Shown piece by piece: positions 1 to 61,650 of a DNA stretch of 64,000 bases. A model generated the notes under the pieces. It saw only the letters and a list, made by a program, of their open reading frames with translations, was not told where the DNA came from and did no database searches. Location of the stretch: the NCBI GenBank assembly GCA_009746045.1, contig RPFO01000027.1, positions 5,145,146 to 5,209,145 on the forward strand, written 5' to 3'. Source of the stretch: Mesostigma viride. Taxonomy: Eukaryota > Streptophyta > Mesostigmatophyceae > Mesostigmatales > Mesostigmataceae. The translations under genes were made by a program, and so were the position numbers. How positions within the stretch are numbered: the stretch's first letter is position 1; every line of letters starts with the position of its first letter.

Positions 1-81
1 TTAGCAGCTCAACGGACGACCGGTGATGAAAGGGTTTCATCATCTACTCCCAGACGTCAACTATTTGGAGATACCACCTTA

Positions 82-6038: not shown

Positions 6039-6087
6039 GCACTGCTAACGCCTCCTTTTTGGTGCTGTGTGTCTGTGGTTGCCAGCC

Positions 6088-16100: not shown

Positions 16101-16658
16101 TCCGTAGTAGAACCGCCAGCCGTCGATGTCGTCAGCAACAAGGGCAGTTGATCCGCGGGCCGATGCAGTGCGCCTGTGTTCTTGGATTCCCAGGATGGCG
16201 ATATTATTGTCGATGCAGAAACCAATAAGATTGGAGACTCGATGGCACTGACAGTCGTCACTGCGCAGGCAGTGACAGCGGTCAGCGTCGGGCTGGAGCG
16301 TGCGGGCGTTGAAGGTGGCGATGACCAAGGGCGCGCGTTGACCGAAAAGGGGGGTGCAGGCGGGGGTGGGGGCGGAGATGGAGCAGGGTGGTGATGGGGG
16401 TGGGGGTGGAGGTGGTGGGGTAGGGGGGGCGGGTTGGGGACTTATGCTTTCAATCACCATTTCGATTCTTCCTGCCAACGCGTCGAGGCGACGCCGACGG
16501 TTGGCTCGGGTGGCCAGGTAGAATGAGTCTGCGTCTGCACGCATAAGAAATGCGTGCAGTCTGAGGAGGTTTCGGAGGCGGCCGCGCGAGGCGGGGCTAA
16601 CCTGGCTCACTGCCGACCCGTTGCTCTCTCTCCGACAGCCCGAGGGCTGCGAAGGCAA
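13107..16658 (-). CDS. LINE ORF2: AP-like endonuclease and reverse transcriptase (1183 aa)
   Basis: Intact frame. A Pro-rich linker (about residues 75-92) precedes an endonuclease/exonuclease/phosphatase domain at about 111-375 with IQEHR (Glu160), LLLDAN (Asp276, Asn278), CIDYV (Asp341) and RSDHR (Asp367, His368), the metal and catalytic residues of LINE nicking enzymes. A linker with a basic helix leads to the RT at about 640-930: QMGFRPGRNT, FVDFIKAFDSV (Asp771), GVWQGCVLSPYLF, LIYADDITL (Asp889-Asp890), GLEISPKTEAL and KLLGSWLP. The C-terminal part has the TYGAETWTL block common in LINE RTs. Together these perform target-primed reverse transcription. No break or missing catalytic residue is seen, so this could be an active copy. 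Clade not assigned by eye. Confidence 0.95.
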   Translation of the reverse strand: MPSQPSGCRRESNGSAVSQVSPASRGRLRNLLRLHAFLMRADADSFYLATRANRRRRLDALAGRIEMVIESISPQPAPPTPPPPPPPPSPPCSISAPTPACTPLFGQRAPLVIATFNARTLQPDADRCHCLRSDDCQCHRVSNLIGFCIDNNIAILGIQEHRRTASARGSTALVADDIDGWRFYYGGGDGTGNGGVGLLCSPLAVRHMGEPQLVNARLLVATFHSMEGHSTYALTVGVGYAPHSGHPEQDRKDFFAALENLANGIPGRNYLALLLDANATLPPGTGGCQHAPNGTVSNANTELFADLLTTCDLVTANTRFPHSPDALVTHTSPTGTERCIDYVVMRKRHQGSVLAARSHVIPLVRSDHRIVTARIRLRFPSPFRKHVAPPDLRTLQLLEKSDDALEDFPEKRAHKRAAEAFVDALDIPASHAQLFAAGPASALRHLADKLPAAGALLPPRRPPRFTSLHRLPAVIQARQALRDNRDPARYARLKADYHSAIRQATKEQEDLHVREYFAHLKDQHGKYAWTRLRHAQRPAGGAQPAPRTLSGSPQQQLNQWYSSQSRLLGAPPPPPPLGPLAAARLAVAPADVPAPPTPPAAEQDYTYPALTEPLAHPNELPPFTELELSTAAKQLRFYAAVGPDQLPAPVIKLTALTGFLLDVCNRILLADAPPIPEWQHSYRIMLYKNKGSPDDPANYRGVCIQSAALKLFMRMILNRLRSALDCHLGESQMGFRPGRNTVMAIFVARRLFEEIALLQPGEFPAILIFVDFIKAFDSVLWDALWAVLARARVPTPLITVIRTLYEGSTTSVRTQHGITPPCPLQTGVWQGCVLSPYLFIIVVDYVMRQARARFASIAGRAPGLAITNELGEGGPTNKQNLLADLIYADDITLIEKPESAQLWLDCLALEARAVGLEISPKTEALALGMAGPPPTLRLLDDAEVNYPTSGRFKLLGSWLPDCEDDMTTRIGMAWAHLHDHRRWWSNPALPRIVKRDLFKVVILTILTYGAETWTLMQELEQRLDGAVTKMLRKALNIPFGLHISNEDLYADLPYVSHIIRHRRLGLAGHLARTDQVDTSDRLAGTKPAQPGRYVLTWRAPGRARQGRHPWTFRDRLGMDMCYTRRDGLTPGQPPGLSVIWRQMVRKDRWQVVMKETTPKPVGAPRVTKYGIHSDSGRGAHMPL

Positions 16659-16786
16659 AGGGGCGGGAAGGGGAGTTAGGCAGATCCCACTGCTAGAGCC
16701 GCGGAGCCGCGAGCCTCGTCATTGATAGGAGAGAAGGGTTCGCAGCGCGGGCTCCGGCTCAGGTGCAAAGCGAACGAATTTATTAG

Positions 16787-19118: not shown

Positions 19119-19981
19119 GTATACATTGTGTCGTCGTGATGTCATGCCGCGCAAATTCAACCCACGGGTCCCAGTAAGGCTTCGTGCAGTAAATCGCGCG
19201 CTCGCCTCGCGAGTCGTGCGATCGCCTTCCCATCGCGGCAACATCCACGGCCCACAACTTGGCTCACGATGTGCGTTGCGTCGTCTCGAGTTCGCGAAGA
19301 ACAAACCAAACGAAGCTTTCATCGCGCGAGCATTGTGCTTGGAGAACAGGACACGTCAATTATTGTTCTCCTGCAGGCTGCAGCTGGTGATCTGTCATGC
19401 TTCCTGAAAATATTCATGCGATCCTGAAAATATTGGGCCGAGTTCATTCAATTGGGTCTTAGAAACGTGGTCAAAGCCCCCATTTTTAAGCGCTCACCAT
19501 GGCGGCATTTCTATCAGGCGAAGATAAAGGTGCCGCGTTGCGGGCGGCTTAAGAGTTTTCAGGTGATGGGTTGGCAAAGTGTGACCACGAGGGATCGCGG
19601 AGTCGCCGGGCGCGCTCTCCTCGACTTCCAACTAGGTCAGTCAAGGAGCGCCCACTAACAGGCTGACTTATCAGCACCGTTTTTCCCTGCGAGAAAGGAT
19701 TGATATCCTTGGTAAGCTGAACCCAGCATCTAACGGAGCCATCCCCGACTTGGCGAGCACGACTATACACGTGTCAGCAGGTAAGGGTAGTCGTCCACAT
19801 TGAAACTCTCGCTGCCATGGTTACCTTTCCGTGGCATTTCCAGTGTTTTGCCACGTGCTGGCTGCCTCATCTGACGACGCAGATTTCCAACGCTGCGTGT
19901 CCTCGCGTGCCTCATCCTCCATCACCTTCAGGCTTCGCAAGAGCAACCCCTCCGCGAGATATAGTTTCTTCAGATTCGGGC

Positions 19982-22900
19982 ATGGGCGTTCAGCCAAGGG
20001 CACCCCCCCTGGCGAGGGACTCCACCTTCTCGCGGCCCAACTGTTCGATGAACCCGTCGGCAGGGTCAACGGACGGCCCCGACATCGATGCCACGAGAGC
20101 GGAGCACCTTTTCCACGAGATCGCCGCCCGCCGCCCTGGCAGGGACATCCACGACGCCCTGGGCTCCATCCTCGGGTCCGTCTTCGGCCTACTCTCAACC
20201 GACGCCGCGGTCTCCTTTCTACCCCTGAGAAGCGCCCTCAAGCACGCCTCCCTGGCAGATATTCCGCAGCTTCCCGAGCTCTTAAGGGCCCTCGGCTTTC
20301 GGCTCAACCCGCTTGTCTCCGTTGACAACGACGCACCAGAAGTTATCAACAGTAATGACACGGCACACCATGATGACGGGGCAGCCCATGGCATCGATAA
20401 GCATGACAGCGGTAGGTCAGCCCATGCTGATGTCATGGTGACCCAGTCGCGGGGTAACGGGGTCCACCGTGATCTCATGTTGGTCATGCATGCTGCTGAC
20501 GCCCGGACCCACCTGCCCGCGATTCGTGCCGTGCACAAGCTGTGCTTGCAGCTGCACGCGAGTGCGGTGGGTCACCACCCTGCACTCAAAACCGCCAGCA
20601 TGCCCCCTGCCTTTGGTTCCATCGCCCCCCCGCCTGTGGCCCATGGTAATACGATGTTCACAGTGGACAAGGGCGTGGGCAAGGACATGGACAAGGGCGT
20701 GGGCGTGGGCGAGGACAAGGGCAAGGGCGTGGGCGTGGGCAAGAGCAACAGCGTCATGGACGGGACACTGTGTGCTATGAATAGCCATGACCAGACGGCC
20801 CGCATGCAGGTGGAGACACCCACCAGCCTGGCATGCCCTGCGAACCAGCCAAGGAAGCGGCCGGTGGTGGGCTCAGCCAGCGTTTCGGGGGGGAGGGAGG
20901 AGAGCCAGCCCCCCGGGAAAAGGGCCAGGGAGGGGGAGGGAGCTGCGCCGGCGTCCGGGGGGCCATGTCCAGGGTCCCAGGTATGCAGGCACACGTATCC
21001 GCAATCATGCTGCTCTCGTGGGGTGGGGTGGCGCCCATATTCATCCGTGTACTAGCATCACGGGTGAGTCCATTCGCCACTCAAGGAGGTCCGGGCTTCG
21101 GTAAAGACTTCTTAGCGTGCATCCTGGTTTTGTGAGAGGAGAACTGATGTTGCTGTCGCGCCATGCTGCTGCCTTCCCCATTGTCCGAGGGTGAGAAGGG
21201 GGGGGGGGGGGGGACAAGGGGGCAGGGGGAAGGAGTATTGGGAGGGGAATGGGGAAGTAGGGTGCTGCCGTCCCCATGGTCCGCCGGTCACCCACGCTGG
21301 AGTTGGCAGAAGTGAGCAGCAGGCAAGCAAGGAATGTGGCAGTTTATGGGTGTACGCTATGACAGTCTTGCTGCAACTCGCTGTCGACAGTCTTGCTGCA
21401 ACATGCTTTCGACAGTCTTGCTGCAACTCGCTTTCGACAGTCTTGCTGCAATTGTTTTTTTTTTACCATTTGTGCATTCCCAGGTGCTTGCGGAAGTTGA
21501 GTCCGTGATGTTTGGATCCCCCCGTCACACAACATACCTAACATCCGCTCCTGTGGACACTCCGTGTGGTGAGACACTTTCCGTGCTAGCATCCCCACCC
21601 ATGCCTTGTGCTGCCGCATACCCCCCTCCCCCCGTTCCTAGTGCTGCCGCATACCCCCCGGGCCCCAACGCCTTGTGCTACTGCACACAGTCACCCTCTG
21701 CAAAACACTTTGTTGCTATGCTGGCTCTACTGTCCCCCCCCCCCATCAACCTTGCAATGACCATGCACGGACTCTCACAGGCAACGTCCGCATCGATGCC
21801 AGCAGAAGGACGCTCCCTCCCCCATATGGAGGGTTCCTGTATGGACCCGACGCCAGCACAAGAACTCTCCCACATGGACCCGACGCCAGCACAAGAACTC
21901 TCCCACATGGACCCGACGGATGATGCCGTGACGTTGCGAGGCACCCACTCATCGTCGCTGGTCAATGCTGACCTCTCCGTGCGCGATGAAGGCCACGCCT
22001 ATGCCAGCACGGTGGCGGTGACGGCCGCCAATGGCAACCGTGGGGGCGATGTGGCTGCCCCGACGGATGATGCCGAGTGCAGTGGGGATGCCCGCTCGGC
22101 ACACAGTAGGGATGGTGCCACGGACATGCCTGGCAACCATGAAGACCCTGCGACCTTCATGGTTGTTCGCAACGAGGACCTGCCATATGTGCCTGCCGCA
22201 GGCGCCACCGATGTTGACATGCACGTATGTGGTGACCATGCCGCTAATGAGGCGATGGTGACGGCGGCTGAAGGTCAGCCAAGGCTTGCGGGGGACAAGG
22301 TCACGGTTGGTTCCACCATGTCGATCCCGCCAGGTAGCACCAGCTCATTGGCGGCCGTCACCGAGCGCCTGCGCACCTCGTCAGGTGCGTGGGAGGGGAT
22401 TTCTAGGCACCGCTCAGGTTACCTCGCGCATCTTTAGAAACGAGTGAACGCGTCATGCATTGATGAGGACATACAGTTGAATGAGCGTGCAGCGTTCGCT
22501 CTAGATAGATTCCTAATAACGCTGCATTGTGCGTTGATGAGGACAAACAGGTCAAATGAGTGGTTAGATTCCTTAGTTCTAGATAGATTCTTTTTATAGC
22601 TGCAGCCTTTGTCTTCTGCAATTCTTCCAGCTTTTAGGCTTCTCTATCTTCTTCAGTCCCTGTCCTAGCCTACTGCATCGTGGCTTACGGTAACACATGC
22701 AGTCGCTTCTGGTATTAGGCCCCTTGTCGGTCAACTGCTGGCATTGTAGGGTGCACCACCAGGCATCAGAGCTGGTAGCTCTCAAATAGCTCTCAGCTGG
22801 TCTCACGGCTTTTAGTAGGGTACGTTGGTGTTATGGTTTTTAATTCGCTCGGCTTCTCTTGTTGGGACTCTTGTTGGCGGGCCTTCGCTGTACCTTGTAG

Positions 22901-36904: not shown

Positions 36905-37226
36905 ATGTAGTGGGCACATATTTACTCGAAGTGGGCACATTAATTGATTAATAAATCAATTAATAGACACGTGACTGCGTGATTAATAGACGTACACGTG
37001 ACTGCGTCACGTGAGCATAAGTCCTCCATTAGAGCTAAGTGCATGCCAGCTAGACGCGAAAATGGCTGACGGCGGTATGGCTGACGGCGGAGTTCAGATC
37101 TTTTGCGTCTGAGCCCCAAATTCGGTCAGACCACTTGCATTCGATGCGCCTTTCTAAGACGCACTTGCCAGTATAAACGGTTACGGCTGCCACGCAGTAT
37201 AGACAAAGTTACGCACGTGACCAGCT

Positions 37227-38600
37227 ATGACGACTACCAAAGCAAAACGAGGGCTGGAAAAGGAGCTGGCACAGCTTCCCAGCGCCCAGCCCAACCCTCT
37301 CGCCCTCGCCATTGTTCAGCCGCCAGGCTTACCCGCCAAACCCTCGCCAAGCGCCTCGCCTGAGCCCAAGAAACCATGCCACGATCGCCACAAATGGAGC
37401 AAATTCTTGCCCGGCGACGGAATGTTCTCCCTCCTCGAGTGGCAGCAGCTGTCGCCGCAGGAAGTCGTCGAAGTTCTCCAGTTCCTCACACAGGAGCGGA
37501 AGCTCTTTGTGCCCTGGAGAGGGAGGGCGGCTATCGACTACCGCGACACGTCCTGGCTCTACACCTGTGCCGAATCCCGCCAACGCGAGTCTATCTTGAC
37601 CAGCTACTACCAGCGCAGCTTCGGCGCCATCCACAGAGAACTTTGGAACGCACTCAACGCCCCAGCCCCCGCACAGCCGGCAGCCCCATCGGCTTCCTCC
37701 CTCTGCAAGGATGACATCCGCGCAGTGCTGGAGGAGCACGTGACCTGGCCGCTGGCCGAGAAGATGACCTCGCTGAACACCACGCTCAACACGGTCGAGG
37801 CCCGGGTCTCCAACGTGGAAACCAAGGTCGTCCACAAGCTACAACCACAGTTCACGGCGCTACACACCGCGGCGCAGGCTTCGGAAACGCATGCTGCACT
37901 TGTCTCTCGCCTTAACCAGGTGGAAGGCAAGTGCGGCGTGCTCATGAAGAAGCTTGAGGCCATCACCGCCCACACCGAGGCCCTGGCCACACAGGTCCCA
38001 AAGCTAGCGGAGCAGACGGCCACCATTGCCTCCCAGCCACCCCGGCAGGATGCTGGTGACCTCCCGCTCTCCTACGCGGACCTGCTGCGGACAGCGACCG
38101 CCTCCACCACCGACGCCATCGCCACGAAGCTCCAGGAGCTGGAGGACCACCGCCAGGCCCAGCAACGGGAGGTCACCGATCGCGCTCGCCGCGAGTGCCG
38201 AGTGGTGCTACGTCGCTTCCCCCAGAAGCCAGGTGAGACGTCAACCTCCCTTGCTGACGAGATCAAGAAACAGCTTCTTACCCTCATGGGCCTGGTAGGT
38301 GAGGTAGAACTGCGTGGGTGCCACCGCCTTCCCCACTCACGGGACAAGGCGGCCACCCCACCAGTCCTGCTCACCTTCATCTCCCCTGAGGATAAGCAGC
38401 GGTTCCTCTCTCGTCGCAAGCGGTTGCACGACCTCACCTGGACGCTGGATGACGACCTAACCCCCGCTCAGCAACAGCAGCGACGCGACCTGTGGCCGGA
38501 ATACCTCCGCCATAAGCAGGACCCCCAGAAGCCCAAGGTGTACTGGAGGGGCGGGGACCTGATGATCAACCACAAGATGTGGACGCCCCCAGCGGGCTAG
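37227..38600 (+). CDS. LINE ORF1-type RNA-binding protein (457 aa)
   Basis: Intact frame. The N-terminal part is Pro/Ser-rich with a basic cluster (PEPKKPCHDRHKW). The middle (about residues 155-330) has long helical heptad-like stretches expected to form a coiled coil. The C-terminal third (CRVVLRRFPQKPGE ... CHRLPHSRDK ... PPVLLTF ... DDDLTPAQQQQRRDLWPEY ... GGDLMINHKMW) follows the RRM plus C-terminal domain plan of L1-type ORF1 proteins, which trimerise, bind element RNA and act as chaperones. The start is the first ATG of the frame. No Cys knuckle is visible. Confidence 0.82.
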   Translation: MTTTKAKRGLEKELAQLPSAQPNPLALAIVQPPGLPAKPSPSASPEPKKPCHDRHKWSKFLPGDGMFSLLEWQQLSPQEVVEVLQFLTQERKLFVPWRGRAAIDYRDTSWLYTCAESRQRESILTSYYQRSFGAIHRELWNALNAPAPAQPAAPSASSLCKDDIRAVLEEHVTWPLAEKMTSLNTTLNTVEARVSNVETKVVHKLQPQFTALHTAAQASETHAALVSRLNQVEGKCGVLMKKLEAITAHTEALATQVPKLAEQTATIASQPPRQDAGDLPLSYADLLRTATASTTDAIATKLQELEDHRQAQQREVTDRARRECRVVLRRFPQKPGETSTSLADEIKKQLLTLMGLVGEVELRGCHRLPHSRDKAATPPVLLTFISPEDKQRFLSRRKRLHDLTWTLDDDLTPAQQQQRRDLWPEYLRHKQDPQKPKVYWRGGDLMINHKMWTPPAG

Positions 38601-42245: not shown

Positions 42246-43898
42246 TCACATGGCCACCCCCGCCTGCAGCATCTCTGCTTTCACGTGCTCCAGGTAGCCC
42301 TCATCCGGGTACCCGTGCGCACCGCCGGGGGTGGGGTTTGTCTTGTGGTGGATGCTGCCCCACTTGACCACATTCTCTTCCCCTGTCGTATCGCTCGTGC
42401 CCACAGCAAAGATCAGCCGCTGCTGGAACGCCCGCTGCAGCATCTGGACCACCCTGCGACCGTGGGGCGAGTCAGGCAAGTATGCCTGACGGCGCAACCC
42501 CTTGAACGGCTTCCCAGGGGCATCACCGTCCGCGTCCTGCACGCCGCTGGGGACTTCGTAGAAGATGACGATCGCTCCCGGGGGGTGGCCCGCCAGGGTG
42601 AGCCCAGGGACCACTTTGTGGGCCATGCGGGCGCTCAGCGGCTGCTTCCCCACCGTCAGCCCGAACCGCTGCATGCACACCTCGCAGCGGGTGAAGGTTT
42701 GCGACGTGATGCCGTCCGCCATGACGCGCGTCTGGATGAGTGGGCGGCAGCAGTCGGCGTGGCCGTTCACGTGGCCGCACGGCATGGCCAAGCAGGGCTC
42801 TCCTACACTGACCACATCCAGGCACACGAGGCACTGTTTGGCCAAGTCCTGCGGAGTGAGCGGCCGCTCTGCGCAGGAGGTGCCGGCAGCCCCCACGGAT
42901 GCAAGCGCGCCAGCTGGAAGAGACGCACCGGCAACCGCAGCAACAGGCCCACTGGCAACACAGCCGTTGGCAGCAGCGACAGCGGGGTCGTAGGCACCGC
43001 TAGCGCCCTGGGCCCTGTTCACCGCCACATGCATCCCATGGCTGCCCTGGGCACTGTCCCCTTGACTGCTGGTGCCAGCGCCAGGACGGGACCCAACGAC
43101 AAAGGGGATAGGGGCCACCCCCGGTGCATTATTGGCGGCGTAAAGCGCGCTGGTCGCGTCGCCAGAGTCCTTGTTCCCAGGAATGTTTTTACCCCCCTCG
43201 GCGCCGCCATCGATGTCCATCGCGTCAACCCCATCGCCGCCACCCCTGGGCCTGTCCTGCGTCTGGTCCTCGCCAACGATGGGCGAGCCAGCACGCGCTA
43301 CCGGGGCGGTGACCGGGGTCGGCGCAACCAGCTGATAGAACGACTTGAGAAACAGGTCCCAGCGGGAGCCGTCCGATTGGGTCGCCGGCGTCACGGTCCC
43401 AAATGGCTCTGCCACCACCGGCGCCGCTGCCACGGTCTGACCATGGCTGCTGGAACTGCCCCCGGTCGGCGCGGCGGGGTACTTGAACGCGAACTCAGGA
43501 ACGGAGAGAAGCGGCGGCGGCGTGGCCACGGTCGGCATGGCCTTTGTGGCCTGGAACTCGAGCATGTACATCGGGCACGTGGAGGACCTGTCGTACATCA
43601 CAAACTCGTTGGCGCCCGTCGCCCCAGCCACCCCAACAAGGTCTCTAATCCTCCGGCCCACCACAGAATCGAAGCGCGTGTCACTCGCCCGGCGGCGATC
43701 CACCTCGGCCTTCTCTGGCTCAGTCTTCCAGGGGGCACTATCTGCGCGTGCCGGCACCGCCAGCATGTCACCGAGGAGCGCGGAGCAGATGTAGAGTTTG
43801 CCCGTGCTGCCGCTATAAACAGCCGCCTTGCGGGGGTCGTCGCTCAGGTAGATGCCGTGGCCAAAGGTGCCTCCACGGGAGAGGCGGAGGTCCAGGCC
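42246..43898 (-). CDS. Paralog B terminal exon: PARP C-half, RING, DTC
   Basis: One 551-codon exon after the acceptor CCACTCAG. It begins [20 protein letters not shown], the PARP donor-loop region, with Tyr1240, and reaches NEFVMYD with Glu1321, the third residue of the H-Y-E triad associated with chain elongation. A Gly/Ala-rich linker of about 230 residues follows. The RING reads CLVC, then [12 protein letters not shown], then CEVC, i.e. a C3H2C3 ligand pattern. The end is a full-length [73 protein letters not shown]. In Deltex proteins the DTC binds NAD+ and ADP-ribose and works with the RING to modify ADP-ribosylated targets or ubiquitin. The 570-codon antisense frame over this exon is a shadow. 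Confidence 0.93.
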   Translation of the reverse strand, partial: GLDLRLSRGGTFGHGIYLSDDPRKAAVYSGSTGKLYICSALLGDMLAVPARADSAPWKTEPEKAEVDRRRASDTRFDSVVGRRIRDLVGVAGATGANEFVMYDRSSTCPMYMLEFQATKAMPTVATPPPLLSVPEFAFKYPAAPTGGSSSSHGQTVAAAPVVAEPFGTVTPATQSDGSRWDLFLKSFYQLVAPTPVTAPVARAGSPIVGEDQTQDRPRGGGDGVDAMDIDGGAEGGKNIPGNKDSGDATSALYAANNAPGVAPIPFVVGSRPGAGTSSQGDSAQGSHGMHVAVNRAQGASGAYDPAVAAANGCVASGPVAAVAGASLPAGALASVGAAGTSCAERPLTPQDLAKQCLVCLDVVSVGEPCLAMPCGHVNGHADCCRPLIQTRVMADGITSQTFTRCEVCMQRFGLTVGKQPLSARMAHKVVPGLTLAGHPPGAIVIFYEVPSGVQDADGDAPGKPFKGLRRQAYLPDSPHGRRVVQMLQRAFQQRLIFAVGTSDTTGEENVVKWGSIHHKTNPTPGGAHGYPDEGYLEHVKAEMLQAGVAM

Positions 43899-46800
43899 CT
43901 GAGTGGCAAGTGGACATGGACAGGGATATAGAAATCATGGGGGGTGGCAAGTGATGTTGCAAACAAGGTAAGAATGACGTAATGGCTTCACCACGAGTTT
44001 CGTTTCGACATGCGCTGCTATGTGTGTGGCAGGACAGGCCTACAGCCCAGCCCCCTGAGTTTGTATAGGTGCGTGTGTTTGTTGATGGAGGGAACATCGG
44101 TATGACAAGCAATAGATACATGTTGGCTCTACTTGCATGGATGGATCCCAAGGCAGCCGTCCACCTACCCCCCCCCCCCTCCGTCCACCTACGAGCATGC
44201 GGACATGTTGATGTGTGTGTGAATATTTTGGTGACCGACATAGCAAATGCTGATGTGTGAGTGAATAGTGGTACCAATCGATGTCGAGAGCTTCACAGGC
44301 GAGGCTTCCCTAGATGCCGGCCAGCAAGCACACGCTTGTCCATTGACAAAGTGCATGGAAGTTAATTGCAGCAACGAACACCGCGAGGCATGGGAAGAGA
44401 GCCACAAGATAAGCAGCCAAGTCTATCAAGAATGCCAGGTGTTTCGCACCAAACCTAGCCATCTTTGCACGACGATCTAGTACTGTTTCATGTACTGGAA
44501 GGAAGACAACCAGGTCTACCCAGGATGGCACGTGTCTTGCACACCGATCTAGTTATCTTATCTACTGTCTGTTAAATACCCGGTCTAGTTATCTTGTCTA
44601 CTGTCTGTTAAATACCCGGTCTAGTTATCTTATCTTCTGTCTGTTAAATACCCGGTCTAGTTATCTTATCTTCTGTCGGTTAAATACCCGGTCTAGTTAT
44701 CTTATCTACTGTCTGTCAAATACCCGGTCTAGTTATCTTATCTTCTGTCGGTTAAATACCCGGTCTAGTTATCTTATCTTCTGTCTGTTACCTTATATAC
44801 TGTAGATATCTCACGGATGCTCCCCCCCAAAAAAATTTTTCCGACATTTGGCAGGCAATTTCTGATGCCAATCGCAGAAGGCTATAAAAAAGGTAGACCT
44901 TTACCGACTGGAAACAAGCGAATCTTAGAGAAGGGGGCAGAATCCACAGCGGGCCACGGATTTCTTAAGTGAGATTTTTTCCTTGTGTGAACGGAACTAA
45001 GCCTATGCCCTCCCTACTGCAGTTGCTGTTCCTCGCCTGAAACAACCACAAAATCAAAACGCTTTGGAAAGGATGCCCATGCTTACATCTAGGCAGATCT
45101 TGGTGTGGTCCTCCTTAGTGCCGTGGTAGAGAAGGCTCTGCAACAAGTGCACAGACAAGCCGGACAAACAAAACGGAGAGTCAGATTTAAGCAAAATGGG
45201 GTGTGTGGGACATCTCCTTGCTGCAGTGGTAGAGACGGCTCTGCCAACCACGTATGGAATCCGACAAGAAAGCTAGATACTAGTACCAGGCTACGTGCCA
45301 AGGTACCTCAAGAAGTTCAAAGAGGTTACTAGTGAAGCCAATACACAAGGAAACAATATTGAATAGCAAAGCCAGTATTACATAGTAGAGCCAATACACA
45401 AGGAGACAATATTGAATAGCGAAGCGAATATTGAACAGTGGACCCAATACACAACGAAACAACACTGTGCACAGTCAAACAATCAAACAATCAAACAAAG
45501 AGAAATCTCTACAAATCAAGACAGCGAATGCCACGCAGACCAGCGACAGGACAAGTGACAATCTAGCTCCCTGCTGTAAGTTGCACGTTTCTTGAAGAAA
45601 AGAAGCGAAATAAATTAGAGAAAATAAGAAATATTCTTTTAATTTCATTTAAAAAAATTTTTCCTTAAAAATGGGAGCTAGGTCATTACCTCGTGCAGGT
45701 CATACACGCGCATGCACCGGGTCGGCGTGCTCATCTCGCCCGGCGGTCCGACTTTCCTCTTGAGCATGGCCAGCCGGTGCGAAACGTAGGCCTCCCACAG
45801 GTGGGGGTTCTGGATGCGTGTGACAGAGGTCACTCGGATGCCGAACATGTCCATGCGGGAGGCCCAGTAGAGGAACTCCACCGAGTCGTCCTTGACGGGT
45901 ACGCACTCGTAGGGCAGGGAGGGGTCCATGGGCGTCCTGCCACGACAGGGGCGAATAGCACGTTATATTCATTATCAGCAAGGTAGGTAGGAAGCATGAT
46001 ACTCGCGAATAGGGCAGGGAGGGGTCCTGGGTGTCCTGCACTTGGAGAGCACGGAGTTGCATGTGTTGTCAGGCAAGATAGAGTGTGTTCAGTGTACAGA
46101 GGCACGCGCGAATAGGGCAGGGAGGGGCCCATCAGGGTTCTGCCGGGAGAAGGGGAGAAGGAGAGCACGCGTGGAACAGGCAAGGGGGTGTAGCCCACAA
46201 GAAAACCAGCCTTGAAAAAAGCAAGGTGTCCACCAGGGTCATGGGCTGCCAAGCAGACAAGATGGAGAGTGCGTGGTTCAGGCGAGGCAGGACAAGCGAT
46301 CCCTACGAAGCATGTCACATTCACAGGGGAGCAACGAGTCCATAGGCGTCCTGTCGCCCGATGATCAGGTGCGCATGGTTCAGGCGAGCATGTCATGCTC
46401 ATAGGAGCCCACCATTGGGCGTCCTGTTGAACAGGAATGCAGGCCAGGCAGTACTAAGAACGTCTTGTCTATCTTTATAATGATTAGGTATCTATCTTTT
46501 ACAGAGTTTACACCACAACTCTAAAATGCACACAGATGGACAGAAAGCACGGGATTTGCAGGCGTCCTGTAGGGGATGAAATAATAGGGTAGAGTGCGCG
46601 GGAGAGGTAAGGCAAGTGTAATGTAGACATGAGCGCGTCCTAAGGGTGGCGAGGGATGAATGGGGGTGCTGCCACAAAGTACTATCAAACGCAGATGCCA
46701 AGCGATAAGGAAAAATCTCACCCATGGGGTAGCCAGGCGCACTAGCCATTCAGAGTACAGCATAGAGACCCAAGTGCTGAAATTCTGGGAATGAAAAACT

Positions 46801-49800
46801 CGCATCATGAACAGGGACTTACCACATGGGTGGCTGCGCACAATCGTCCCCTGCCCACAACGGCGGCGTTGCCGCGGCCAACGGAGGCCACGCCGTGGGC
46901 TGCGGTGCCAGGTTTATTTGGTTGTCGCGTTGTGGGGGGATACCCTGGGCAGGCACCCGCGGCTGTGTTGGCAACGGTTGACCTGCGCGTAATGCCGCTG
47001 CCTGCTGCTGCACGAGCATCTGCTGTGCCAACTGCATGCGCTGTTGCATTGCGAGGATAGCTGTCGCTTGTTGCTGCTCAGATTGCTGCATCCGTGGCTG
47101 CCCTTGCGGCTGTGGTTGTGGCTGTGGCTGTGGTTGTGGCCGTGGTTGTGGCCGTGGTTGTGGCTGTGGTTGTGGTTGTCGCTGTCGTTGCGGCTGTGGT
47201 TGCGGCTGCGGCCGCAAGTGTGCTCGATGCTGCCGTCGTGCTGGCCGTGATTGGGAGCTTGCGCATGGCGGCGCCGCTGAAGGGGTGGCGCTGCGTCGGG
47301 GCCGTAAGCGCGACAGAGTCTGTGCCTGCGCCTCCACCTGCGCCTTTGACAGAAGTCGAGGCTGCGGCTGGGTCTGTGCCTGTGCCTGCGCCTGTGGCTG
47401 TGGCTGTGGCTGCGCCTGTGGCTGCGCCTGTGGCTGAGGCTGTGGCTGAGGCTGTGGCTGTGGCTGAGGCTGTGGCTGTGGCTGAGGCTGTGGCTGTGGC
47501 TGACGCTGAGGCTGTAGGCTGGTAGGCTGCCCCAGAGGTGCTTGCTGGGGGGAGGGCGGTACAGCTGCTGTTGGTGCTGGTGCGTGGGCTTGAGGGGCCG
47601 AGGGGCCGGCGGGATCCCTCGATCGGCGGTATGCCTCCAGCTGCTGTCGCAGCTCAGTCTGCGGTGGATGGTGCAAGAAGAGCAGCATGGGTTATGTGTC
47701 GGTGGGTGGGTGGATGGAGTATTGAGATTAGTACAAGCGGCAAAGTGATGCTGTCGCAGCTAGCTCTGTGGTGGATGGTGAAAGAAGAGCAGCATGGGTT
47801 TATGTGTCGGTGGGTGGGTGGATAGAGTATTGACATTAGTACAAGCGGCAAAGTAATCCTGTCGCAGCTAGCTCTGTGGTGGATGGTGAAAGAAAAGCAG
47901 CATGGGTTATGGTGTGTGTATTTGTGTGTGTGTGTGTGTGTGTGGAGGAATGAGATGAGAACAAGCGGCAAAGTAATGCCGTCGCAGCTAGCTCTGTGGC
48001 AACCTACGGTGGAGAGCACGGGTGTAGGACGAATGTGAGAATAAAACTAATGCTGTCGCAGTTCGTTCAATGGCGAGCGTTCAGCCGGGGTGTGGAAGGA
48101 GGGGAAGGAGGGGAAGGAGGGGAAGGAGGGGAAGGAGGGGAAGGAAGGGAAGGAGGGGAAGGAGGGGAAGGAGGGGAAGGAGGGGAAGGAGGGGAAGGAG
48201 GGGAAGGAGGGGAAGGAGGGGAAGGAGGGGAAGGAGGGGAAGGAGGGGAAGGAGGGGAAGGAGGGGAAGGAGGGGAATGGGGGAATGGGGGAATGGGGGG
48301 GGGGAAGGGGGGGGGGGGGGAAGGGGGGGAAGGGGGGGAAGGGGGGAAGGGGGGAAGGGGAAGGGGGGAAGGGGGGAAGGGGAAGGGGGGAAGGGGGGAA
48401 GGGGGGGGGAAGGGGGGAGGGGGGAAGAAGGGGGAAGGGGGGAAGGGGGGGAAGGGGGAAGGGGGGGAAGGGGGGGAAGGGGGAAGGGGAAGGGGGAGGG
48501 GGGGAAGGGGGGGAAGGGGGGAAGGGGGGAAGGGGGGGAAGGGGTGGGAAGGGGGGAAGGGGGGAAGGGGGGAAGGGGGGGAAGGGGGGGAAGGGGGAAG
48601 GGGGGAAGGGGGGAAGGGGGGGAAGGGGGAAGGGGGGAAGGGGGGGAAGGGGGGAAGGGGGAAGGGGGGAAGGGGGAAGGGGGGAAGGGGGGAAGGGGGG
48701 AAGGGGGGAAGGGGGGGAAGGGGGGAAGGGGGGGAAGGGGGGGAAGGGGGGAAGGGGGGAAGGGGGGAAGGGGGGGAAGGGGGGAAGGGGGGGAAGGGGG
48801 GAAGGGGGGAAGGGGGGAAGGGGGGGAAGGGGGGAAGGGGGGGAAGGGGGGAAGGGGGGAAGGGGGAAGGGGGGGAAGGGGGGGGAAGGGGGGGGAAGGG
48901 GGGAAGGGGGGGAAGGGGAAGGGGGGAAGGGGGAAGGGGGCGGAAGGGGGGGAAGGGGGGGAAGGGGGGGAAGGGGGGAAGGGGGGAAGGGGGGGAAGGG
49001 GGGAAGGGGGGGAAGGGGGGGAAGGGGGAAGGGGGGGAAGGGGGAAGGGGGGGAAGGGGGGAAGGGGGAAGGGGGAAGGGGGGAAGGGGAAGGGGGAAGG
49101 GGGGAAGGGGGGGGAAGGGGGGAAGGGGGGAAGGGGGAAGGGGGGAAGGGGGAAGGGGGAAGGTGGGGAAGGGGGAAGGGGGGAAAGGGGGGGAAGGGGG
49201 GGGGAAGGGGGGGAAGGGGGGAAGGGGGGAAGGGGGGAAGGGGAAAGGGGGAAGGGAAGGGGGGAAGGGGGGGAAGGGGGGGAAGCGGGGGGAAGGGGGG
49301 AAGGGGGGAAGGGGGGGAAGGGGGGGAAGGGGGGGAAGGGGGAAGGGGGGAAGGGGGGGAAGGGGGGAAGGGGGAGGGGGGGAAGGGGAAGGGGGGGAAG
49401 GGGGGGAAGGGGGGGAAGGGGGGAAGGCGGGGGAAGGGGGGGAAGGGGGGAAGGGGGAAGGGGGGAAGGGGGGAAGGGGAAGGGGGGAAGGGGGGAAGGG
49501 GGGGAAGGGGGGAAGGGGGGGAAGGGGGGAAGGGGGAAGGGGGGAAGGGGGGGAAGGGGGGGAAGGGGGGAAGGGGGGAATATGAAGAGTCACGCTAACG
49601 ATGCCACTGCCGTAAGTCATGTTCTGGTGAGCAAACAGCGGGGGTGGCATGTAAGCGCTGGGATATGACAAAAATAAAGCAGCAGCCCTGATGTGGTGTA
49701 GGGCCATTGACACACAATGAATGGAAGTCAAGGCGTAATGGTGGGTTGAATGATTGGGTCGAGGCACACACAAATAAGAGCAATGGCGGCGTGGTCTGTG

Positions 49801-52800: not shown

Positions 52801-55800
52801 CTGTCAGCTCAATGATCGTGCTTTGCGGGCCTGCGGGGGGGAGAGAAGGGAATGGGAGGAGAGAAAAGTATAGCGCTTATTAAGTAAGGCATGGGAGCAT
52901 GGCGGGGAGAGGGATGGTGAGTGAATCATATACTGCTATGTTGACATCAGGGCACCCGAATCAGGGGAAAACATGGGAGCAAAGAAGGGAGAAAAGTAGG
53001 GGCAAAGGAAGGGGCGAAGGAGGGGGCAAAGAAGGGGGCAAAGAAGGGGGCAAAGAAGGGGGCAAAGAAGGGGGCAAAGAAGGGGGCAAAGAAGGGGGCA
53101 AGGAAGGGGGCAAAGAAGGGGGCGAAGAAGGGGGCAAAGAAGGGGGCAAGGAAGGGGGCAAAGAAGGGGGCAAAGAAGGGGGCAAGGAAGGGGGCAAAGA
53201 AGGGGGCAAGGAAGGGGGCAAGGAAGGGGGCAAGGAAGGGGGCAAGGAAGGGGGCAAAGAAGGGGGCAAGGAAGGGGGCAAGGAAGGGGGCATCAGCTCA
53301 TGATCACAAGCTTATGGGCCTTGAGTTGGCGGGGGTACACCTATTTATGGAAGAGCAGGTGAGGGAGTATTTACGGGACTACAGGCTTGATGTGACAGAA
53401 AATATGATACCAACTTGGAGGAAGGGGACAACGGCAGCAGCAAGAAAAAGAGGGAAACAACGCAGCAGCAACAGGGAGGTGGACGCCAACAGTCAAGAGG
53501 GACCCTAGGCTTTCCAGCAACAACGCTCCAAGGGCTGATCATGTGGACAATAGCCCTTTGAATATGCCAGCAGCAAGAACAGAAAAAGGAGAGAAACGCC
53601 AGCAGCAAGAACAGGAAAAGAAGGAAAGAAACGCCAGCAGCAAGAACAGGAAAAGAAGGAGAGAAATGCCAGCAGCCAAAACATTACCTGTAGAAACCGC
53701 GGAAGCTGAAGAAGCAGTGGGCGTGGTGGCCACAGCGGCTGCAAGGGGCATGGGAGGCATTGCGGCAGCTCCAGGCACGGAAGCCAAGGAGGCGCAAGCA
53801 GGTGTGGAGACCTCGACGGCAACGCCAGGCGGGGAGGTCGGGGGACCGCTATTCACAGCGAATATGCTGCCATTCACTAAGGTGGGTCCAGCCGAGGTGG
53901 TGCCTGGCTCATCGCCGGTGCCAGCTGTGCCTGCCACCATGGCGGCGCGACCAGGGGACCATGGGGCGGCGGCCGAGCTGCCCGCGAGGGCCTGGAGGGA
54001 TGAAGGCAGGGGGGGGGAGGAGGAGGGGGAATTGTAAAGCATGTACTGGCCGTTAGCTTCTTAACCATGGACTGTGGAAGATGAAAATTAGATACTACTT
54101 CATAACCCATGTAGTAGTACATTATAACCAATGCATGCCTCTTGATGAGGTAGCAGGGGGGCACGGGTATATGCAATAATAATTACACCAGGAATGCAAT
54201 AGCAAATAGGGGGGCGCTAACATACATGCCTCATGCTTGGATGTGGTGAGCATATTATGGCAGGAGCGTCCCCTGCTGCTGCATGAAAGCTTGGAATGGC
54301 AGGTGGTATAACAAGATGTCATAAACTGCGACAACGCTGTCATGAAACAAGATGGTTACTGAAGCTTAAACTGTTCCGGGGGAGGGCAAAGTACAGCAAG
54401 TGCCCATATCGCATCAAGCGGCTCGTCCAGATATAGCTTGCCAGGCACGGACCACGAGTCCAGCTAATTATATTTTAGTTTTGTTGATATTCGTTCAAGT
54501 ACGGATGGCATCAACCTGAAGGAGGTACCGTTATGCACATATATACCTACAAGGAAACAAGTAATGATTACATAGGCTGCTAGCACAAAACCAAGTACGC
54601 TGACAAAAGGTGGCAATGAGCACAGACACTTGTACGGAAACAAGAAACAAATGCAATAACCAGCAAGCAGTACCACCACCTCCCTAGCGACGGTGTATAC
54701 ATAGACATCCACAGGAATGGCTACAGACTAGGAAGGAGTGAGCGTAGACATCCACAGGAATGGCTACAGACTAGGAAGGAGTGAGCATAGACATCCACAG
54801 GAATGGCTACAGACTAGGAAGGAGTGAGCATAGACATCCACAGGAATGGCTACAGACTAGGAAGGAGTGAGCATAGACATCCACAGGAATGGCTACAGAC
54901 TAGGAAGGAGTGAGCATAGACATCCACAGGAATGGCTACAGACTAGGAAGGAGTGAGCATAGACATCCACAGGAATGGCTACAGACTAGGAAGGAGTGAG
55001 CATAGACATCCACACTACCTTACCTGGGTTCCCAGGGATTTCACAGCCGGTGCTTGCATGAGATCCTCTTCCCCTGTGGTTTTTGCCTTCTTGTCATGGG
55101 GGGGATCTTCCGCGGCGCTGCCATGTGGCGGCGTGGCTGGCCGTTTCCTCTCTGAAGCCTTGGGGGTGAGTGAGGCAACATCCGCGGCCCACTCCATGTC
55201 GACTGAGCATGCCGGGCTGTCATGGCCTGCCATGCTGTCATGGCCTGCGGTGCTGGCTGGGTCTGCGATGCTGTCATGGCCTGTCACGCCATCGTGGCCT
55301 GTCACGCCATTGCCCTGGTCCATATCAGCGAGGGCTTTCCCTTTGTCGATGTTTTTAAAACCAGCCAGGTGAGATGCCTGGCCATCCGCCGTGTTGATAA
55401 CGTCATCAGTGGCGTGGTTGGCAGCGTGGTTGGCACTCATATGGAAAATTTGGCCAGCAGCCGTGTTGGCAATGTCATTGGTGGCATCATTAGCAGCGTT
55501 GTTGGCAGCAAGATTAGCAGCGTTATTAGCATAATTGGTGGCATCGTTGGCAGCCTTATTGGAGAGGTTAGCCCCCTCAGGCGTTGTGACGGTTCCAGAG
55601 ACCAGCCGGCTGCACCGCCTGAACACGGCCCGGATGACGGGATAATTCCTGCGGGCATCCGCTGCCTGCAAGACGGCCATGATGGCGGGATATGCTGCGT
55701 CGTCGTTGAGGTCGATGAGGGGCATGAACTGGAAGCCGATCGCCTCCAAGAGATGGCGGACTTTGGGGAGGTCCGCGTCGTCGCGTCCCATGGATAGGTC

Positions 55801-56067
55801 GCTCAACGGGACGGAGAGTTCCCCCGCGTTTTTAGACACCAGGCCGAAAACGGGACTAAGCAAGGAGCACAGCGCTTGGCTGATGTCACTGCGTGAACTG
55901 CACGCGAACAGCGAAGAGCAAAGCTGATCCGCCTTGGAGGCATGAGCGCCATTGGTGGTGTCGGTCGATCCGGCTTGCGAATGCGCGGAGCCAGCACTGA
56001 CAGACGATGGCTCACCCACTCGCGTCACGCGCGGCTGTACCACCATCCTCGGCTCTGCGGAAGACAT
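42246..56067 (-). CDS. Paralog B: PARP catalytic domain fused to RING and Deltex C-terminal (DTC) domain, 1773 aa predicted
   Basis: Exons (minus strand): 56067-55024, 53991-53688, 52830-51743, 50524-50459, 50386-50354, 47658-46823, 45936-45690, 45137-45087, 43898-42246. All have GT-AG borders, the phases join, and the total is 1774 codons with the stop. Residues 1-348 hold the N-terminal domain shared with paralogs A and C, then Asn/Ala-rich and GHD-repeat segments. About 349-1120 is Pro/Gln/Ala-rich with a basic patch (SGKRKRDPG, a possible nuclear signal) and a short helical module. About 1125-1335 is the PARP catalytic domain with His1211 (YHGT), Tyr1240 (GHGIYLSD) and Glu1321 (NEFVMYD). 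After a disordered linker come the RING (1579-1631) and DTC (about 1639-1773). Predicted role: ADP-ribosylation coupled to ubiquitin transfer. No WWE or macro domain was seen. The catalytic half is certain; the small exons at 50354-50524 are the least certain. Confidence 0.8.
44560..44800. repeat. 36-bp tandem repeat, paralog B intron between H-G-T and terminal exons
   Basis: About six units containing CCCGGTCTAGTTATCTTATC and CTGTTAAATA, with two alternating variants (TCTACTGTC and TCTTCTGTC). Confidence 0.88.
45087..45137 (-). CDS. Paralog B 51-bp microexon with the PARP H-G-T motif
   Basis: Seventeen codons between TTGCAG and GTAAGC encode [17 protein letters not shown]. This contributes the NAD-binding His1211 and joins in phase 0 to the preceding exon (ends DLHE) and the next (starts GLDLRLS). 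That gives the usual PARP order of LxHGT, a helix with Ile-Cys, then G-x-D-x-R. Without this exon the enzyme would lose its nicotinamide-ribose contact. A degenerate copy lies about 70 bases upstream in the same intron (about 45205-45243). Confidence 0.88.
45205..45470. repeat. Degenerate H-G-T microexon copy and short tandem repeats
   Basis: On the minus strand, GGCAG-AGCCGTCTCTACCACTGC (about 45224-45246) mirrors the acceptor and start of the real microexon, but would read RLYHCS and has no donor. Next to it, units around CCAATACACAAGGA-ACAATATTGAATAG repeat at 45336-45450. Confidence 0.65.
45690..45936 (-). CDS. Paralog B exon: start of PARP catalytic domain
   Basis: Begins with one base completing the Trp codon split with the exon ending at 46823, then 82 codons. 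It contains [20 protein letters not shown], the conserved opening of PARP catalytic domains (R-I-Q-N-x-x-L-W-x-x-Y), and ends VYDLHE at GTAATG. Confidence 0.88.
45995..46580. repeat. Imperfect repeats carrying copies of the PARP-exon acceptor
   Basis: On the minus strand, copies resembling the junction GGCAG-GACGCCCATGGACC and the first 25 exon bases recur near 46035, 46140, 46350, 46430 and 46570, increasingly diverged with distance from the real acceptor at 45937. Confidence 0.65.
46823..47658 (-). CDS. Paralog B exon: Gln/Pro-rich segment
   Basis: Starts [15 protein letters not shown] after CACCGCAG and ends PPM plus two bases of Trp before GTAAGT. Long Gln-Pro alternation (about 47100-47520) is followed by QQQ-rich helix-prone sequence. 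It is homologous by position, phase and opening helix to exon 7 of paralog A ([11 protein letters not shown]). Probably disordered, possibly phase-separating. Confidence 0.8.
47690..48075. repeat. About 115-bp tandem repeat carrying the acceptor of the Gln-rich exon
   Basis: Units contain TGTCGCAGCTAGCTCTGTGG and TGGATGGTG-AAAGAAGAGCAGCATGGG. Read on the minus strand they reproduce the sequence across the acceptor at 47659 and the first 15-20 bases of the exon. A (TG)n run lies at 47918-47943. Confidence 0.75.
48083..49580. repeat. 1.5-kb purine-strand array of GGGGAAGG-type units
   Basis: An almost pure A/G strand with units of 8-16 bases built from GGGGGGAA, GGGGGAA and GGAGGGGAA, within the long intron of paralog B. 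The first 200 bases are a regular 9-bp (GGAGGGGAA) array and the rest is irregular. All three plus-strand frames and one minus-strand frame are open through it only because of composition. Confidence 0.95.
50640..50870. repeat. Tandem repeat in paralog B intron 3
   Basis: Two and a half copies of a unit of about 110 bp containing TGGATGAGCGTGCTGCAATAG and ACATGG-TCCTATATTAGGG. Confidence 0.8.
50990..51170. repeat. 12-bp CAAGCCAGCCAA array, paralog B intron 3
   Basis: About nine units at 51060-51170, preceded by a CCCGCCCG-rich stretch. Confidence 0.85.
51480..51742. repeat. Repeat carrying copies of the exon 3 donor region
   Basis: Four imperfect units of about 65-70 bp (CTAGCAGCGCCC ... 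CTACCAGGTGTAGCAGATATC ... ACCAAGCA). On the minus strand each unit contains a GT-bearing match to the region just after the exon 3 donor, including a G-C-A-G/GTACGG form. Confidence 0.65.
51743..52830 (-). CDS. Paralog B exon 3: Pro/Gln-rich segment ending in helical module
   Basis: The acceptor TCCCCCCCGCAG gives the two bases needed after the phase-1 exon 2. It contains the basic patch SGKRKRDPG, long Pro/Gln/Ala tracts, and ends in [17 protein letters not shown] followed by SKLRQLKAH at GTACGT. The ending corresponds to the ends of exons 3 and 5 of paralog A. Confidence 0.75.
52985..53292. repeat. 12-bp GGGGGCAAAGAA array, paralog B intron 2
   Basis: About 24 units with A/G variation at one position. 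An adjacent set at 53565-53685 repeats CAGCAGCAAGAACAGG-AAAAG, directly next to the exon 2 donor. Confidence 0.9.
54697..55014. repeat. 43-bp tandem repeat, paralog B intron 1
   Basis: About seven nearly identical units containing GAGCATAGACATCCACAGGA, starting 9 bases after the exon 1 donor on the minus strand. Confidence 0.92.
55024..56067 (-). CDS. Paralog B exon 1: shared N-terminal domain
   Basis: Starts [14 protein letters not shown] and runs 348 codons to LGTQ at GTAAGG. Residues of about 45-150 (LLSPVFGLV ... [26 protein letters not shown] ... [13 protein letters not shown]) align with paralogs A and C along their whole length, showing a conserved helical domain of about 110 residues that I cannot assign to a known family. 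Asn/Ala-rich repeats ([14 protein letters not shown]) and GHD repeats follow. Confidence 0.85.
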
Positions 56068-56514
56068 GTTAACAGGAAGGGAACTGCAGGCTTGCGTTAG
56101 ACAAGAAATGACCAGGTAAAAGGACTACAGGTGACCATTACAGCAATCTGACCGTCACAAGCTAAGCTGTTTGCTTGCTAACAAGCGAAACCCATTCATT
56201 AAAAAACACTTACGACAGCCGCGCACGCCTTGCTCCCGTCGAACGTCCAGAAACCAGTCACGACGGTTGCGCTGGTTTCTCCAGCGTGTTTGAGATGTCG
56301 TGGCTTGTTTCGTGGGTGGATCGTCTAGAGGGTTTTTTGGCTTGCGGGCTTCCGTGTCGAATATATATCCATTTGGACAAAAACTTCGCGCAGTACCCGA
56401 ACGGAGGTGCGCGAGTTGCCGAGGGTGCAGTACCGCCGGAGGGATTTGGGGGTCGATCGATCGAGATCTTCGGACTTCGGGAGGTTCGCCGTCGGAAAGT
56501 TACGAAGGGTACAG

Positions 56515-59395: not shown

Positions 59396-60181
59396 CTCCG
59401 GCACCCTTCGCATTCCCGCCAAAAAGCACGGCGCTGCTGGAAGCGTAACCGGCACTCGCTCACCGGCACAGTTCGCCAGGCTCGCGCCAGTCGCCACCCA
59501 GGCTTGGTCGTCGTCACACGGCATTAGGCGCGACGCGGCACCTTGGAATGACGTGGCGTGCCGGCAGAAGAAAGAAGAAGAAACGTTCGCGGAACCATAT
59601 CGCGGAACCTCGGCGGAAAGTCCCGCGAAGCCTCGACCCCACGAAGACCACCCACAAAACGGCGCAGGATAGAACACAGGAAGACATTCCATTATTTTCT
59701 CCAGCTTTTTTCTCAGTAGTAGGTACAACAAAACGGGAGTCTCGATGATGCCGATAAGCATACCTTGTGTTTTAGAACTATTCACGCGACAGGGCACGTT
59801 GGGCGGGCTTTAAGTACGTTCTTTCTTTCAGGGCGTGCGCTGCAAGGAACCCCACTTCTTGCTTTGCCAGTGCGGCGGTGGATTAGTGCGGAAGAACTCG
59901 GTTGCCGAGCGGCTTTACAACCAACCGACAGCAGGGTCACTACTTATCTGCCTCCACAGATCCTACGACGACTTGGTAGACCAGTAAACAAAACGAGGTG
60001 CGTACGGTGGGCATAAACGATAGCATAGAAAATTCCCTGCTGGACATGACCACTTCCGAAACTCTGACTGCATGGCGGCGAGCGTCCATGGCGCGGTCTC
60101 AACCGTGTAGATTTTCTATACATCGCTATTCGCTATGCCTTTAAAAATGATTCAATTCTTGTTTATGGTGCAGGTCTGAGC

Positions 60182-61650
60182 ATGGTGTCAAAAACACATG
60201 CGCGGGCAGGAGAACCGCGGGCTATTGGCGCTGGCGATCGACAAGGCAGCAGGCCGGCGGGGCTCGAACGCGTCCAAAGTCGTAAAGTGGAGCGAGCTCG
60301 CTCTCTATTTTTCACGTGCAGTCCAGACGCGGACACGGCCACCGCGCTTGTTTCCTTGCTGGATCCAGTGGTTGCCATTCTTCCTAATAACAACTCTGAA
60401 GACATCTGTATGGCTTGGAGTAGCCTTTCCAAGGGCAGCTTTGATGCGGACGCGCCCCAGGTTCGCAACTTGCTGAAAGCGCTGGGCTTTCAGTTCAAGC
60501 CCATTATCGACGTAAACGACGACGATGCACCACCCGCGTTCATGGCCATCATGCCGGCTTCCAAGGCTCGCAAAAAGTCATCGGTGATCCTGGCCGTTTA
60601 CGAGCTGTGCAACCGGGTCCTTTCGGCACCTCCCGTGACCTGTGACGGAGGCCACACTGCCGGCGATGCTGCCAAATATATGGCCAAAGAGGCTTGCGAA
60701 AACGCTGTCAACATTGCTGCTAACAGTAGTGCTGCTAATAATGCTGTTAACAACTCTGCAAAGAGAGGTGCCAGCAATGTTGCCACGGATGTGGCGGGCC
60801 AGGCATGCCAGCTAGCTCTTCCTGATCATTTCAACAACGGCGAAACTCCCGCCACCAACGAGTGGGGTGACGTGGCAGGTCCCACCAGCATGGCATTGGA
60901 TGTGGTCGCTGGCCCCCCCAGTCCTGGCAAGCCTGCCAAACGGAAATGGGGCGTTACACTGCGAGCGGACACCCCAGAATTTTCCCCCCTCGATAAGAAA
61001 GCAAAGGAGGAGGTGGTGAAGGATAAGGAGTGTCCGATGCAAGCAATGGCGGGGCAGCCTGTGGCCCCCCAGGTACGTATGCACCACAACTTTTTGAACC
61101 AAATAGTTGCTATCTCGCTTGTGTTTGCTATACCTTGCTGTTGTAATTCCTAGTACACTGCTCGAGTAAACTTTTTTGAATACAGTGTCGCAAAATGCCG
61201 GCCGTTCCTTCCTCCTCTGGCTGGGTTGTGGGTATAGTGACAACGGATCGGGTACCGTGAATCCACGCTTGAGTGCGGCAAGTGTGGGGCAGTGCTGGGT
61301 CAACAAGGTGCAGCCCAGTCCCCACATTCATACAGCCCCAGTCCCCACATTAATATAGTAGAGTACTAAGGGTCTGTTGTCTTTTTTCCCCCGGCTGCAG
61401 GGTGAGATGGTGGCCAGAAAGCTCTGAATACGATGCGTGGTTGCCCTTCCCCCCAAGCCCAAGTATGCCCAAGTATGCCCCCGCGTGACACAGTCACGTG
61501 CTTTTACTTTTAATTTATACTTTAATTAATAATGCCCATGTCGGTTTTCTTGGGTATTCCGGCGGTGGGTATTCCGGCGGTGGGTATATCACGGTGGGCT
61601 TGAGCTGGGCATCAGCAAGGCCAGGCGGTGTCAACGGTCACGTGAGGAGC

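Follow-up and report, generated by a model that had tools for sequence, protein, structure and literature searches.

Can a single polypeptide both write ADP-ribose and act on it as a Deltex-type ubiquitin ligase? This question is raised by a gene, designated gene B, in a stretch of 64,000 nucleotides from the alga Mesostigma viride (contig RPFO01000027.1, positions 5,145,146 to 5,209,145; hereafter the window, in which all positions below are counted). A first-pass annotation had joined three exons at 42246..45936 into one chain with a PARP catalytic domain, a RING and a Deltex DTC domain. Our analysis confirmed that gene B is real and not an artefact and, as judged from sequence, it is one of at least ten predicted Mesostigma genes that encode PARP, RING and DTC as one enzyme chain.

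The exons of gene B lie on the minus strand. The terminal exon (42246..43898), delimited by a single open frame, by Pfam and by a core profile of the PARP-RING-DTC unit, holds the C-terminal half of PARP, a linker, the RING, the DTC domain and the stop codon, and it sits in one 562-codon open frame that includes the Tyr and the Glu of the catalytic triad. Positions 96-282 and 295-517 of the core profile were both matched in this frame. Because the C-terminal half of PARP, the RING and the DTC share it, the fusion in gene B is independent of splice prediction. The triad His lies outside the terminal exon on a separate mini-exon of 51 nucleotides (45087..45137; YHG(T)) with AG..GT borders and phase 0, which is preceded by the exon for the N-terminal half of PARP (45690..45936; RIQNPHLW), matched by Pfam and the core profile. 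The junctions 45690/45137 and 45087/43898 have GT..AG borders and join in phase as proposed, giving a product of 658 amino acids without an internal stop. Moreover, in a script inspection of gene B and eight paralogs, all nine genes share the position of the second junction (phase 0, before GLD) and eight share that of the first (before [SA]LLYH), L010 lacking the usual donor; the mini-exon is present in all eight paralogs. In L009 both junctions are visible by eye, and L009 and L016 each contain one additional intron within PARP. Support for the predicted junctions of gene B thus comes from homology, not from RNA.

Within the 658-residue product, Pfam called PARP (PF00644) at residues 40-224 with an expect value (E) of 4.8e-12 and 46.2 bits (cut-off 26.7), and DTC (PF18102) at residues 525-656 with an E of 1.2e-37 and 129.5 bits (cut-off 25), so that both domains of the first-pass annotation score above cut-off on the joined exons. 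The terminal exon alone sufficed for a match to the C-terminal half of PARP (43551..43877, minus strand), with 27.3 bits against the cut-off of 26.7. The catalytic triad, counted on the sequence and placed by an alignment of PARP domains, consists of the His of YHGT (45123..45125), the Tyr of GHGIY (43848..43850) and the Glu of NEF (43605..43607), the latter also placed by a profile alignment to PARP12. These residues are invariant across nine PARP domains (gene B and the gene models P0001-P0007), which bears out the ordered PARP landmarks with a full H-Y-E triad. The RING (42675..42833, counted on the sequence) is separated from PARP by a linker of about 240 residues and stands directly before the DTC domain (42255..42650; Pfam and genome DTC search). 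Pfam scored zf-RING_2 with an E of 1.2e-4 and 22.8 bits, under its cut-off of 27.3 bits; a check of the ligands found all eight, in the order C-C-C-H-H-C-C-C. The C3H2C3 RING and the complete DTC read from the same exon therefore stand, the RING with this qualification. An alignment to DTX2 chain 6y22, along which the DTX2 residue numbers were counted by hand, matches the His of IHHKT (42348..42350) to His582 and the Glu of KAEM (42273..42275) to Glu608, consistent with the proposal that the DTC half is of the ligase type. For the RING, a Deltex-type assignment was rejected; its best solved match, a weak one, is MYCBP2. A structure model made from four sequences reached a mean predicted local distance difference test (pLDDT) score of 33.8; in a later model of P0003 the DTC was good and PARP weak, and its RING-DTC aligns to DTX1/DTX2.

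How widespread is this arrangement in the genome (439.9 Mb in 2243 contigs, the window's contig being labelled C335)? A DTC search yielded 13 matches, ten of them full-length (profile positions 2-133) and three partial, and none in the 14 control genomes. About 10 kb was examined around each of the nine full-length loci other than gene B. According to the core profile, PARP exons lie upstream of RING-DTC on the same strand in gene B and at all nine fetched loci, and at each of the ten loci a C-terminal part of PARP shares one open frame with RING-DTC. At eight loci this terminal frame covers the core profile up to position 517, beginning no later than position 97; L009 and L016 have less PARP in it and carry long inserts. 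The core profile was built from gene B, P0001, P0002 and P0003, and the matches at these four loci are therefore built in. As an independent test, Pfam placed both PARP and DTC above their cut-offs on a single protein for eight of the ten loci, namely gene B, the hand-spliced L014 and L017, and the models P0001, P0002, P0003, P0005 and P0006, paired by eye with L010, L013, L012, L015 and L018, respectively. Given the terminal frame only, Pfam scored PARP at 17.6 bits in L009, under the cut-off, and did not detect it in L016. An exon-by-exon Pfam search for PARP across the genome gave eight matches, which among the ten loci comprise only gene B and L017 and otherwise fall on other PARP places; some of the loci L021-L028 from this search are other PARP genes. 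The four proteins returned by the first protein search were all M. viride gene models, and the annotated models recovered came to seven in total, two of which, P0004 and P0007, contain PARP without DTC.

The active-site residues are largely retained in this family. H-Y-E is kept at all ten loci, as seen by script in gene B and seven paralogs and by eye, across the extra intron, in L009 and L016. Gene B reads YHGT, whereas the other nine loci have HC at that place. The RING ligands are CCCHHCCC in seven of eight genes and CCCDHCCC in L015. The places of DTX2 His582, His594 and Glu608 are occupied by HHE in five of the eight (gene B, L010, L012, L013 and L014), by HYE in L015, QHA in L017 and QFE in L018, and, by eye, by H-Y-E in L016 and H-F-E in L009. 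Since DTX3L has Tyr at the place of His594, only the changes at His582 (L017 and L018) and at Glu608 (L017) count as loss, and the DTC catalytic pair is kept at eight of the ten loci. Across the family the PARP triad is thus kept at least as well as the DTC site, in contrast to the usual account of the DTX3L-PARP9 pair.

Selection was estimated by the method of Nei and Gojobori from the 28 pairs of eight genes; L016, where the extra intron breaks the frame, and the divergent L009 were left out. The median ratio of nonsynonymous to synonymous differences per site (pN/pS) was 0.44 for PARP, 0.56 for the linker, 0.33 for the RING and 0.38 for DTC. In comparisons of gene B with the seven paralogs, the corresponding rate ratio (dN/dS) ranged from 0.25 to 0.39 for PARP, from 0.23 to 0.30 for DTC and from 0.19 to 0.78 for the RING (57-58 codons), and from 0.48 to 0.60 for the linker in six unsaturated pairs; these values are rough, as dS is often >1. 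Taken together, purifying selection acts on PARP, RING and DTC.

We then asked whether the same domain order occurs outside Mesostigma. A profile run against 5.8 billion proteins gave 12 matches: the Mesostigma PARP proteins P0003, P0005 and P0006 (with DTC) and P0007 (without DTC), seven DTC proteins without PARP, and P0015, a protein from an uncultured source with PARP and DTC. A search with P0015 gave eight matches, consisting of P0015 itself, P0016, P0017, P0018, the fragment P0019 and three proteins that have DTC and lack PARP. Pfam called both domains in P0016; P0017 and P0018, in which PARP was not called, resemble P0015 over 99-100% of the length. A viral origin was considered for the uncultured set, and two scans of IMG/VR with a few peptide patterns each found no relatives of it. 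Each protein search scored the best 8000 candidates by shared words within a length range, and the absence of the fusion elsewhere is therefore weak evidence. In a tree of 20 of the 22 DTC rows (L014 and L016 left out), the Mesostigma and the uncultured DTCs form separate clades; a joint clade was not rejected (approximately unbiased test, p-AU 0.314), so that one or two fusions are possible.

How could such a chain work? A transferase like that of PARP12 and PARP14 would transfer ADP-ribose from NAD+ either to a bound target or to its own chain. This ADP-ribose would then be held by the DTC, whose His/Glu pair would activate the 3' hydroxyl, and the RING would bring the ubiquitin-charged E2, which would result in an ester-linked ADP-ribosyl-ubiquitin mark or in ubiquitylation of a nearby lysine. 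To this mechanism in its broad form, in which PARP is coupled to DTC and RING, we assign a probability of about 0.6. Its strict form, in which ubiquitin would be ester-linked in cis to the ADP-ribose written by the same chain, is tentative and may well fail. The first-pass annotation had described the fusion as a writer and a DTC ligase in cis. The single frame, the ten loci and the H-Y-E triad agree with this description; we infer the activity, the coupling in cis, the substrates and the expression of gene B. Some qualifications apply. The linker is the least constrained part (pN/pS 0.56), with a frame that reaches about 1000 residues in L016, and because it is long and loosely constrained, cis coupling is the least supported step. 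In addition, the order PARP-RING-DTC is not unique to Mesostigma, as the uncultured set shares it with a divergent PARP.

The same linker, about 240 residues in gene B and about 1000 in L016, would suit an alternative in which the two halves are uncoupled, with the DTC ADP-ribosylating ubiquitin at Gly76 or acting as a plain reader-ligase and PARP modifying other proteins or itself, for instance to control turnover. Human RING-DTC modules are indeed reported to join ADP-ribose to ubiquitin Gly76 (PMC8883491). However, the fusion is retained at all ten full-length DTC loci, which suggests that proximity matters, and we regard uncoupled halves as unlikely. A fast-turnover or decaying lineage-specific family, in which gene B may be unexpressed or inactive, would be in keeping with the partial DTC copies (three of the 13 matches; L011, L015), with the PARP-only relative P0004/L019 that begins in the window, with the loss of the DTC His in two paralogs, and with the fact that gene B is not among the annotated models returned (search range up to about 1150 residues). 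Against this, the joined exons of gene B contain no stop, its triad, RING ligands and DTC pair are intact, and its dN/dS against the seven paralogs is 0.23-0.39 for PARP and DTC, which makes decay quite improbable. Finally, the notion that two adjacent genes, one for PARP and one for RING-DTC, were misread as one deserves hardly any credence and was dropped, as the Tyr and Glu half of PARP, the RING and the DTC of gene B lie in one unbroken exon and a C-terminal part of PARP is in the RING-DTC frame at ten of ten loci.

The three exons between 42246 and 45936 stand, but the gene is longer than had been proposed. The first base of the PARP N-terminal exon joins in phase to a further, low-complexity exon (46823..47691, minus strand, with a predicted 5' border); the 46823/45936 join reads ...PPMW|TPMDP and matches Mesostigma models at the same place, and the last 34 residues of this exon match P0004 at 59%. 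Further upstream, an open frame at 55015..56124 (minus strand; MSSAEPRMV..., donor CAG|GTAAGG) resembles the first exon of the PARP gene model P0004, with 33% over 291 columns and a similarly placed donor, and an exon at about 55015-56124 is probably part of gene B. A PUB domain considered for this exon was rejected, Pfam giving no match at E up to 1 (55018-56124). A 1.5-kb GGAAGGGG repeat array occupies 48094-49580 within the presumed intron region.

A second PARP-DTC copy in the window ('paralog A') was not found by the PARP and core profiles, which besides gene B gave only a relic mini-exon, a linker-like stretch and matches with E >= 2. The relic, at 45243-45190 (minus strand; E 0.17-0.26) in the first intron of gene B, derives from a duplicated mini-exon and is soon followed by a stop; it reads YHC as in the paralogs, whereas the mini-exon in use reads YHG. 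The linker-like frame, about 260 bases past the stop of gene B at 41985-41830 (minus strand), is similar to the linker between PARP and RING in the paralogs (core profile E 0.018) and is perhaps a remnant of another family copy.

The window also contains the first exon of P0004 (Mv03360), residues 1-298 of which match 60182-61075 (plus strand) at 99.7%, divergent from gene B. The PARP exons of P0004 lie further on, in L019, and neither RING nor DTC was picked up by the core profile in L019-L020; P0004/L019 is a PARP-only member of the family. An N-terminal domain that has no Pfam match is encoded by three related exons, at 19721-21055 (plus), 55015-56124 (minus) and 60068-61153 (plus); the exon at 19721-21055 is part of a locus lying to the left, and PARP was not found in the window for this locus. 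A different N-terminal helical domain, likewise without a Pfam match, is present at residues ~1-97 of P0003, P0005 and P0007 and was modelled confidently in P0003 (pLDDT blocks 83-95). L010 carries an extra PARP part upstream of the unit, P0001 reading PARP-PARP-RING-DTC, and L014 and L017 carry an extra PARP part and a RING without a full DTC upstream of the PARP-RING-DTC unit. The full-length DTC loci are clustered, three of ten on contig C1580 and three on C335. Among the remaining features of the window, named by eye, are a Ty3-like retroelement with a chromodomain-like end (1-7278, plus), a non-LTR (long terminal repeat) element with endonuclease and reverse transcriptase (13107-16718, minus), an ORF1-like frame of retroelement type (37221-38600, plus) and an open frame ending in a PHD-finger-like Cys/His pattern (8766-9668, minus).

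If the coupled mechanism holds, the same molecule could attach ADP-ribose and ubiquitylate the mark that it has made. In animals PARPs and Deltex ligases are separate proteins, which makes it difficult to test whether they act one after the other on the same target; the Mesostigma fusions offer a one-protein system for such a test, and the retention of natural fusions with conserved active sites at ten loci is an argument that both steps belong together. The retention and amplification of a self-contained ADP-ribosyl-ubiquitin writer in an early-diverging streptophyte alga, perhaps fused again in another lineage, is conceivable, at somewhat short of even odds. Deltex was considered holozoan-specific in the survey by Gazave et al., 2009 (PMC2770060), and the Mesostigma genes put DTC in the green lineage, too.

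With which known systems can gene B be compared? No description of a PARP-DTC fusion was found by title or abstract in the open-access literature, so that the single-chain architecture is, as first supposed, apparently undescribed. Term searches of the available text found neither Mesostigma nor deltex nor DTC in a 2025 plant PARP phylogeny (PMC12785305), and neither PARP nor deltex in the Mesostigma genome paper (PMC6947507).

A close counterpart is the vertebrate DTX3L-PARP9 pair. A single locus gives rise to PARP14, PARP9 and DTX3L, which have been proposed to act jointly (PMC12687431), and contact and reading in DTX3L-PARP9 are attributed to KH domains and macrodomains (PMC10955461). This pair consists of two chains, gene B of one. 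In the 658-residue part of B, Pfam found neither macro nor KH_DTX3L at E up to 1, and the traits of the pair, namely separate chains, KH contact and a macrodomain reader, were not found in B, the 5' exons of which were partly scanned. The catalytic triad of PARP9 is degenerate, whereas H-Y-E is present in ten of ten PARP domains of the Mesostigma family.

DELTEX enzymes are reported to attach ubiquitin to ADP-ribose at its 3' hydroxyl, and His582 and Glu608 of DTX2 are the proposed catalytic pair (PMC7615817). Gene B shares with ligases of the DTX1/DTX2 type the order of RING and C-terminal DTC as well as the His/Glu pair, and differs in a RING that is nearer to MYCBP2 in sequence. Unlike B, the scanned DTC proteins without PARP contain WWE (P0008, P0010), macro (P0009, P0011) or KH_DTX3L (P0012, P0020) domains. 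Among solved structures, those of the PARP10-15 type such as PARP12 and PARP14 come closest to the PARP part by profile (PARP12, E 3.2e-11), and this type is closest also by fold, in a comparison that used the model with weak PARP. In the profile alignment PARP12 has Ile at the third triad place, where B has Glu, and B carries in addition a ligase on the same chain.

PARP is joined to another domain of the ubiquitin pathway on one chain in the U-box-macro-PARP protein of Dictyostelium and in proteins with an E2-like UBCc domain from fungi, moss and Chlamydomonas, as these sources describe (PMC2964712, PMC4245714); the words 'deltex' and 'DTC' are absent from the main texts of both papers. These proteins resemble B in this respect and differ in having a U-box or an E2-like domain in place of RING-DTC. 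The uncultured P0015-P0018 share PARP, RING and DTC in this order on one chain. In contrast to B, their Pfam match to PARP is partial (P0015, P0016) or absent (P0017, P0018), the third triad place is, by eye, Ile rather than Glu, and the RING is above the Pfam cut-off; they are rich in Lys, Asn and Ile and known from protein sequences alone. The Mesostigma fusion is thus made wholly of known domains and lies outside the Deltex and PARP architectures found described.

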